DNA from: Pseudomonas putida
GTDB taxonomy: Bacteria > Pseudomonadota > Gammaproteobacteria > Pseudomonadales > Pseudomonadaceae
Direction: 5' to 3'
NCBI RefSeq assembly: GCF_005080685.1
Contig: NZ_CP039371.1
Span: 4,526,001 to 4,590,000, forward strand
Length of the DNA: 64,000 bases
Part shown: piece after piece, positions 25,881-47,134 of the stretch
Layout of the letters: every line of letters begins with the position of its first letter
Numbering within the stretch: the stretch's first letter is position 1
Notes under the pieces: generated by a model
Seen by the model: only the letters and a program-made list of their open reading frames with translations
Database searches by the model: none
What the model was told of the DNA's origin: nothing
Made by a program: the position numbers and the translations under genes

Positions 25881-25985
25881 GCTTTTTACCGTCTTCGTTA
25901 GGTACTGCGCTTCGGTGCTGCGCCAGAACTGGCGCCGCACCACCTGTGACCGTTGTGACCCTGGGTTATCCCTTGTGATCCGGTC

Positions 25986-31678: not shown

Positions 31679-31921
31679 GCTTGGTCACCCTCGGTTAGGG
31701 GACTGATCGGCGAGAGCCACAGCAAACCTGGAAAAGTCCGAGCAAAGCGACTGAACCACGCCACCTGGATCCTGCTGATTTTCCGGGTACCAGCCCGGAA
31801 GCCCCTGCTGGTCTCATCTTCATAGGTAATGAGCGCGGGCTTTGTGGGCCCTTGCTCGGGTTTTACCTCAGTGCGGGCTCACCACCCGCACCTCGGCTTA
31901 CTGCAGGTACAACGCTTTGTA
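31679..31921. other. Leader region between sdhB and sucA with hairpins
   Basis: Contains TTCCGGG / CCCGGAA (31781-31800) and GTGCGGG / CCCGCAC (31871-31891), both short strong hairpins, in the stretch where sdh transcripts read into sucA. Neither has a T run on the minus strand, so I would not call a terminator. I see no gene here. Confidence 0.65.
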
Positions 31922-46283: not shown

Positions 46284-46318
46284 AAAAGCCCCCGTCTCGC
46301 GAGAGCTGGGGGCTTTTT
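46284..46318 (+). terminator. Terminator of the ETF-QO gene
   Basis: AAAAGCCCCC / GGGGGCTTTTT hairpin with T tail. Confidence 0.92.
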
Positions 46319-46379
46319 CGTGGGCCATGGATTGTTGGGGAGCTGGCTTGGCATTTAGATCGTGAGCTGATCCATTGTG

Positions 46380-47036
46380 TGTAGCGGCGCTACTGGCCCC
46401 TTCCGCCTTTACGGCGGGCTCCTTTGTTCTTGGACAAAGGAGCGCAAAACCGCTCGCTCCTGCATCCGGCCCTCCGCTTCGCTACGGGTCCCCTCGCTAC
46501 GGCGCCTTCCGGGCCCGCGCGGCCTACGACTTGCTCCGCAAGTCTACATCTCGCGCCTTCGGCTACGCCGAAGGGTGCTGCGCACCTGGCCCTACAGGCG
46601 CCTACGCTCGGCCTCCTGACGTCGCGAAGTTAGGGGCGGCGCCTGCAATGGCGTTATCTTCGAAAGAGACACCGCGCTATCCGCTACAACACAAAGCGAT
46701 AGGTAAACCGCGAGAGCGCAGCGATTCGCCTGCCGTTGCTCTGGCTGTTGATCTTGCTCTGGCTGTTGATCTTGATCTTGATCTACCCGCGACCTCAGGA
46801 GGCCGAGCGTAGGCGGCTGGAGGGCCAGGTGCGCAGCACCCTCCGGCGTAGCCGGAGGCGCGAGACGTAGACTTGCGGAGCAAGTCGTAGGCCGCGCGGG
46901 CCCGCAAGCCGCCGGAGCGAGGGAACCCCGAAGCGCAGCGTAGGGGCCGTATGTGGGAGCAAGCGGTTTTGCGCTCCTTTGTCCAAGAACAAAGGAGCCC
47001 GCCGTAAAGGCGGAAGGGGCCGGTAGCGCCGCTACA
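46380..47036. repeat. Large inverted repeat: two ~247-bp arms around a 162-bp centre
   Basis: Left arm 46380-46626 and right arm 46789-47036 are near-complementary over their whole lengths (I estimate roughly 90 percent; not computed). Each arm is a series of small palindromes: GTAGCG-G-CGCTAC, CTCCTTTGT / ACAAAGGAG, GACTTGC-TCC-GCAAGTC and CCTTCGGC-TAC-GCCGAAGG. The latter appears as CCTCCGGC / GCCGGAGG in the right arm, with both strands of the small stem changed together. The centre (46627-46788) contains an 18-bp tandem duplication. No transposase, no target duplication seen. Confidence 0.9.
46737..46784. repeat. 18-bp tandem duplication and TTGATC units in the centre of the element
   Basis: TTGCTCTGGCTGTTGATC occurs at 46737-46754 and 46755-46772, followed by TTGATC twice (46773-46784). 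Confidence 0.9.
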
Positions 47037-47075
47037 CCTCTCGGACCAACCACCCAACCCCAAGCCCCAACCCCA

Positions 47076-47111
47076 AGCCCCAGCCCCAGCCCCAGCCCCA
47101 GCCCCAGCCCC
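47076..47111. repeat. AGCCCC hexamer, six tandem copies
   Basis: Six perfect copies, flanked on the left by variant units (AAGCCCC, AACCCC), just outside the right arm of the large inverted repeat and 24 bp from the end of the MFS gene. A candidate for strand slippage. Confidence 0.92.
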
Positions 47112-47134
47112 CAAGAATCCGTGAAGATCCTTTG

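Follow-up and report, generated by a model that had tools for sequence, protein, structure and literature searches.

What is the large inverted repeat that lies between two genes in this stretch of the Pseudomonas putida chromosome, and how did it come to be there? The original prediction placed it at 46380-47036 of the window (the whole 64,000-nt stretch analyzed here) and described it as a hairpin-rich element that could be mobile and non-coding, a giant cruciform or an RNA. We confirmed the inverted repeat, which resolves into two pairs of ungapped inverted blocks, and these coordinates are right for the core. One pair is 46486-46626 with 46788-46928 (141 nt, 93% complementary), the other is 46379-46472 with 46944-47037 (94 nt, 95% complementary), and the inner ends of the arms are 161 bp apart. 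The repeat is not a product of chance, because the core recurs at 27 further places in this genome with 92-99% identity over the matched part. A larger element encloses the inverted repeat as its core and occupies approximately 46319-47130; comparison of the flanks of the copies revealed that the element extends past the core by about 60 bp leftward and about 95 bp rightward. There is good support for a large non-autonomous element whose ends are of the ISL3 type. We consider it quite probable that it is an ISL3-type transposon of about 0.8 kb, MITE-like and moved in trans, whose hairpin arms serve as a landing site for other insertion sequences.

Structure of the element and its copies

The window copy is about 812 bp long (46319-47130, + strand; the left edge is uncertain, as that end is eroded) and was delimited from the flanks of 28 copies and from sites without the element in relatives. 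It lies between the terminator of an ETF-QO gene and the 3' end of an MFS gene, both named from our reading of the ORFs. The insertion site is a terminator-like hairpin with a T tail behind the ETF-QO gene (46284-46318, + strand), and a similar terminator is present without the element in relatives. On the + strand, the element begins with an eroded left terminal inverted repeat (46319-46335; 6 of 17 positions mismatched to GGTTCTTCACGGATTGT), followed by a G-rich tandem array (46336-46352), which is short here and is (TTGGC)n in other copies, and by a cap conserved among copies, which we call type A (46353-46379). The left hairpin arm (46380-46620, + strand) was defined by inverted-repeat search and arm comparison. 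It contains hairpin H1 (46403-46417), the center of which is the target of an IS4-type element in other copies, with an 11-bp duplication; hairpin H2 (46418-46443), the stem of which differs among copies yet remains paired; and a cloverleaf-like set of three hairpins inside a closing stem (46512-46591), which shows compensatory changes. The center between the arms (46621-46793, + strand) has hexamer-like repeats at 46736-46783. The right hairpin arm is inverted (46794-47036, − strand) and is about 92% like the left arm in the window copy; its H2 (46973-46998, −) was found by inverted-repeat search and its H1 (46999-47013, −) from the sequence. Also on the − strand, a right cap that we label type C follows (47037-47056, from flank comparison), then a G-rich tandem array (47057-47113), which is C-rich on the + strand, and the right terminal inverted repeat (47114-47130), with 2 of 17 mismatches. 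Across the 28 copies the order outward from the core is a cap (type A, B or C), a G-rich tandem array with units of (TTGGC)n or (TTGGGC)n among others, and often the terminal repeat GGTTCTTCACGGATTGT. The number of array repeats differs widely between copies, and the array unit varies between species. In one copy, L036, the two caps have exchanged sides around the core, as would be expected if recombination between the inverted arms had flipped it. It was also observed that H1 of both arms (46402-46418, +; 47014-46998, −) looks like a terminator in a simple scan, which gave three sites in the region versus 1.3 expected.

As predicted, small palindromes follow one another along each arm, and the single-strand DNA fold of the left arm has a z of −3.9. 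A Pfam scan of the five ORFs over the arms gave no family match above the cut-off. None of the ORFs of the element encodes an ISL3 transposase, and thus it is not an autonomous ISL3 element. The suggestion that odd short database proteins resemble the arms proved correct: the translated arms gave 13 matches at E ≤ 0.001 (566 candidates); four of these proteins are called 'hypothetical protein' and a fifth 'protein of unknown function'. These odd short predicted proteins are accounted for by the element.

At least 28 copies are present in this genome (40 of 74 first-look candidates scored). Thirteen copies are intact and uninterrupted, and the remainder are split by insertion sequences or shortened. 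Of 298 genomes drawn from the genus, 232, this one among them, contain some match to the core at E ≤ 0.001 when two candidates are scored for each; many of these matches are short. A family therefore exists, as had been suspected from the arms, and the possibility that the element occurs only here is refuted. In the relatives examined, the arms follow caps and G-rich tandem arrays built from different repeat units, and some also have recognizable ends; many arms of other species have no recognizable terminal repeat. The exact 17-bp end is present in three of the 298 genomes, and in the two other than this one, a tandem array and an arm are found next to it. When ends were searched in this genome with at most two mismatches, 33 sites were obtained: 27 in the 28 copies, three in two coreless copies and three elsewhere (L082, L083, L084). 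In the coreless copies, which measure 134 bp (L080) and about 151 bp (L081), the terminal repeats, arrays and caps enclose nothing but a 15-bp palindrome, TGTAGCGNCGCTACA. Window positions 46335-47100 had no match in plasmid and phage collections; the H1-H2 motif was seen in three IMG/VR viral contigs (L261-L263). A literature search found no description of the element, and papers matching short sequence words of the arms or ends were unrelated by title.

Ends, target sites and relation to ISL3 insertion sequences

With up to four mismatches allowed, the terminal repeat was recognized at 34 of the 56 ends examined; both ends are recognizable in 12 of the 28 copies, and one or both are missing in 16. 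Outside the repeat, 26 of the 34 ends have T, or A, at five or more of the adjacent nine bases, whereas among 136 control stretches only 4 do. Six of the 34 ends passed a strict terminator test and 28 failed it, versus one pass among 136 controls. The 7-mers adjacent to the 12 two-ended copies agree with a mean of 0.69, compared with 0.386 for shuffled pairing (0 of 2000 shuffles as high), and the agreement beats all 2000 shuffled pairings at 5, 6, 7 and 8 positions. Three copies (L021, L023 and L035) have a perfect flank match over 7 bp, and none is perfect over 8. The window copy, with its eroded left end, shows no target duplication. Thus, the earlier statement that there is no obvious target duplication holds for the window copy but not for the family, in which the flanks of 12 copies match. 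Similarly, the arms are unlike a transposon end within 46380-47036, but the ends of the family lie further out.

Empty sites in relatives were found for two loci, L021 and the window copy. At L021, TTTTATT stands on both sides of the element here, and the six relatives shown have one terminator tail. At the window site, four relatives carry the same gene pair without the element; both genes are present at 64 of 80 named loci, and at 63 of the 64 the core is missing from the intervening DNA, which in 23 cases is no longer than 130 bp. The copy number, shared ends, matching flanks, target type and sites without the element support the predicted non-coding mobile element. The neighboring MFS gene has its best matches in certain Pseudomonas species, which we take to be the P. 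putida group. In the remaining one of the 64, Pseudomonas sp. BP8 (L160), a related core with about 72% identity over its two longest pieces lies at the window site and is perhaps an independent insertion. Three others (L129, L144 and L152) have gaps of about 890 bp between the ETF-QO and MFS genes, presumably filled by an MqsR/MqsA-type gene pair, judging by eye.

The resemblance of the ends of the element to those of ISL3 elements was tested. Of the 298 genomes, 33 gave a match to the ISL3 zinc ribbon at E ≤ 0.001, 30 of them above the cut-off. In six of the 30 ISL3-type loci examined (L111, L113, L115, L119, L123 and L128), both ends start with GGTTCTTCACGGA, and one end of each is identical to the end of the element for 15 bases and, for most, at 19 of 21 bases. 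All six are 1308 bp long and have exact 8-bp duplications in A/T tracts, for example TTATTTTT. The protein of L113 is an ISL3 transposase above the curated cut-off. Four of 10 ISL3 copies pass the strict terminator test at either end. The element and the ISL3 insertion sequences of Pseudomonas (1308 bp; NF033550) share the initial 15 bp of the terminal repeat, A/T tracts as targets and a short target duplication. The element differs in that it has no transposase gene, its interior has no visible relation to theirs, and its perfect duplications are 7 bp rather than 8 bp. Nothing is common with the ISL3 elements beyond the terminal 21 bp or so; the idea that the repeat comes from a known transposon holds for the outermost 20 bp or so and no further. 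The element resembles a MITE in that it is multicopy without a transposase gene, shares terminal inverted repeats with autonomous insertion sequences of other Pseudomonas and, as a family, has a target duplication. MITEs are commonly shorter than about 0.6 kb, and this element, at about 812 bp, is larger.

In this genome, no match to Zn_ribbon_ISL3 was found (22 of 74 first-look candidates scored). The sole match to DDE_Tnp_ISL3 (4 of 4 candidates scored) is in a frame that resembles a fatty-acid desaturase, an assignment made by reading, and the two families have a tail domain in common. A resident ISL3 helper is therefore not supported, as neither search yielded a transposase among the candidates scored. 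The ISL3 transposase as mobilizer is inferred, given that this genome yielded none and that no transposition event was seen. An ISL3-family transposase supplied in trans would recognize the GGTTCTTCACGGATT ends, and insertion would occur into A/T tracts, some of them the T tails of intrinsic terminators, with duplication of 7 or 8 bp. Inside, a center separates two inverted arms of small hairpins that have diverged from each other, and the hairpins persist as local stems, either under selection or through template-switch repair. Intergenic copies are probably well tolerated and would thus accumulate as safe sites, the arms being a preferred landing site for IS4-family and IS481-type insertion sequences. 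In this way, likely ends and a likely kind of mobilizer are now given for a widespread hairpin-repeat family of Pseudomonas.

Other non-coding repeats of Pseudomonas can be compared with the element. The P. fluorescens repeat families R0, R2, R200 and R26, some of which are MITE-like, are likewise intergenic, multicopy and non-coding, and in the available part of that report two IS elements of SBW25 are bordered by inverted repeats identical to those of R0 and R2 (PMC2718517). R0 and R2 are 89 and 110 bp, unlike the element of about 0.8 kb. R200 (320 bp, 47 copies in SBW25) and R26 (352 bp, 20 copies in Pf0-1) have no structure listed in that part; they were compared with the arms by description only and could be identical to them. 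The TIMEs of Pseudomonas are likewise non-autonomous, with AT-rich target DNA and a target duplication, but, according to the part of the paper at hand, they are derived from Tn3 and duplicate 5-6 bp (PMC4133298).

Hairpin arms as a landing site and as local stems

Other insertion sequences are found in the arms at fixed positions. All four copies of an IS4-family element in this genome are in H1, with an 11-bp duplication, and seven of the eight full copies of an IS481-type element are at one arm position; the eighth copy and a 53-bp remnant are located elsewhere. The IS4 assignment is above the curated cut-off and the IS481 assignment is below it (146 versus 224 bits). These eleven insertions sit in nine of the 28 elements. 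A search for the IS4-type element matched 13 of the 298 genomes, with 28 matches outside this genome, 26 of which were examined as loci. Twenty-one of the 26 have the 11-bp duplication, and L238, L240, L242, L243 and L259 have no assigned duplication. Among the 21 resolvable outside insertions, 19 are in H1, in seven genomes (18 by pattern and L246 by inspection); L234 and L236 are outside H1. Insertion sequences of two different families thus settle in one non-coding element, and in several species one of the two uses the same hairpin.

This resembles the targeting of REPs by insertion sequences. In the accessible part of one report, REPs are the target of every copy of certain insertion sequences (ISPpu9, ISPpu10 and ISRm22; one of the IS4 family), and ISRm22 is in REPs in 10 of 10 cases in the table and nine in the text (PMC1525189). 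There, too, the target is a palindromic intergenic repeat. Here, however, it is a hairpin inside an element of about 0.8 kb, and IS481 is absent from the five families named in that part of the report. These likenesses raise the question of whether the element is itself of the REPIN/BIME type, moved by a RAYT protein. It is intergenic and palindromic, has GTAG near the arm end and is an IS target as REPs are (PMC1525189), but REPs measure 20-40 bp in the consulted part of another study (PMC3733652), and the element has ends of ISL3 type with matching flanks. We regard a REPIN/BIME-type element as very unlikely.

What, then, do the hairpins represent? The arms of one element are about 88-95% complementary to each other, which fits the proposed giant cruciform, in which the two arms would pair with each other. 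However, in the 13 intact copies, arms of the same element are no closer than arms of different elements (similarity 0.9008 in both cases; permutation p = 0.47), whereas left-left similarity is 0.970 and right-right 0.951. Because left arms resemble left arms and right arms resemble right arms, the element is copied as a whole and a giant stem is not maintained. The giant cruciform is thus not supported, and we find it scarcely credible. The local helices are conserved instead. This was assessed in alignment A2, whose 33 rows are six hand-chosen arms of this genome and 27 arms from other genomes with near full-length matches (shorter matches were dropped). In the 33 arms, 97.7% of the cells of the local helices are paired, compared with 41-48% in slid controls, which retain relatedness but favor a structure derived from the same data. 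Sixteen of 61 helix pairs change on both sides (8.4 ± 1.2 when shuffled; 0 of 500 as high), a control that related sequences without structure can also exceed. By contrast, further pair types, one of five measures, did not exceed the shuffles (268 of 500). H2 is readable in 49 of the 56 arms of this genome and has eight sequence types; by inspection, six form a perfect stem, and of the other two, each seen in a single arm, one contains a mismatch and one is clipped by the pattern.

The paired cells and doubly changed pairs are what would be seen if the arms were a structured RNA (attenuator, stabilizer or small RNA) read through from a neighboring gene, but DNA palindromes would retain the same hairpins too, and the further pair types are within the shuffles. 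In addition, the element has no Rfam match at the gathering score; the scan of the window gave only sucA-II and sucC RNAs, both outside the element on the − strand (31682-31896 and 25882-25950). A search for a sigma-70-like promoter found none. G-U and A-C departures in the better helices number 7 and 6 cells by our own count, giving no sign of a preferred strand, and RNA energies are lower on the opposite strand for 33 of 33 arms. A structured RNA is therefore rather improbable. The hairpins could instead be functionless, their stems being kept perfect by template switching at quasi-palindromes and gene conversion between copies. Consistent with this, H2 stem types are common to left and right arms while the neighboring arm sequence stays left- or right-specific, and double changes such as C-G to G-C (17 and 16 of 33 arms at one pair) go via no wobble pair. 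However, compensation is also seen across the 27 arms of other genomes, and the H1 center varies in a paired way inside the IS4-type target. Functionless hairpins are a real possibility, which we nevertheless hold to be somewhat on the unlikely side.

Orientation relative to replication

Twenty-five of the 28 copies have one orientation relative to replication (Fisher p = 7e-5), a bias noticed post hoc in one genome while the positions were being listed. On replichore 1, before the terminus, 16 of 17 copies are '−', and on replichore 2, after the terminus, 9 of 11 are '+'; the exceptions are L033, L030 and L025. The terminus was placed at 3.07-3.21 Mb of the 6.5-Mb contig by GC skew and KOPS sampling, and the origin was taken to be near the contig start, where the samples are ambiguous; across six choices of origin and terminus, p ranged from 1.4e-5 to 1.1e-3. 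Composition skew or KOPS was rejected as the cause, since the core has a GC skew near zero and no KOPS (six copies checked). The strand of flanking genes was also rejected, as it has no relation to copy orientation (p = 0.70 and 1.0) when the longest ORF passing a GC3 filter, rather than annotation, is used to define these genes. ISL3 copies show no orientation bias (17 in three genomes, p = 1), in a control that uses a different element in other genomes with the contig start as origin and omits one partial match in G052.

The replication-linked orientation is not explained by ISL3-type mobilization: an ISL3-type transposon does not predict it, and the 17 ISL3 copies show none. One may ask whether the element is a replication-polar chromosomal signal, whose orientation relative to the fork is selected, as with other polar sequences, and to which mobility only supplies copies. 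The polarity on both replichores and the lack of a relation to skew, KOPS, flanking genes or ISL3 copies speak for it. Against it, the bias is post hoc and from one genome, with the control being another element in other genomes; no core is present in 63 of 64 relatives at the one widely compared site; and eleven insertion sequences are tolerated in nine of 28 copies. We consider such a signal unlikely. It is likewise unlikely, and speculative, that a mobile, non-coding hairpin element became replication-polar, so that copies presenting one side to the fork were kept or made; in this nearly symmetric element, a directional signal might then lie in the center or caps and might be readable by replication, segregation or replication-transcription conflict. 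If the bias is upheld in other genomes, whether replication direction decides which mobile-element copies survive becomes testable. Two further observations concern numbers too few to count: two G270 loci would run counter to the bias in this genome if the origin lies at the start of their contig, and in G015 seven of eight arm hits, picked by eye, fit one polarity.
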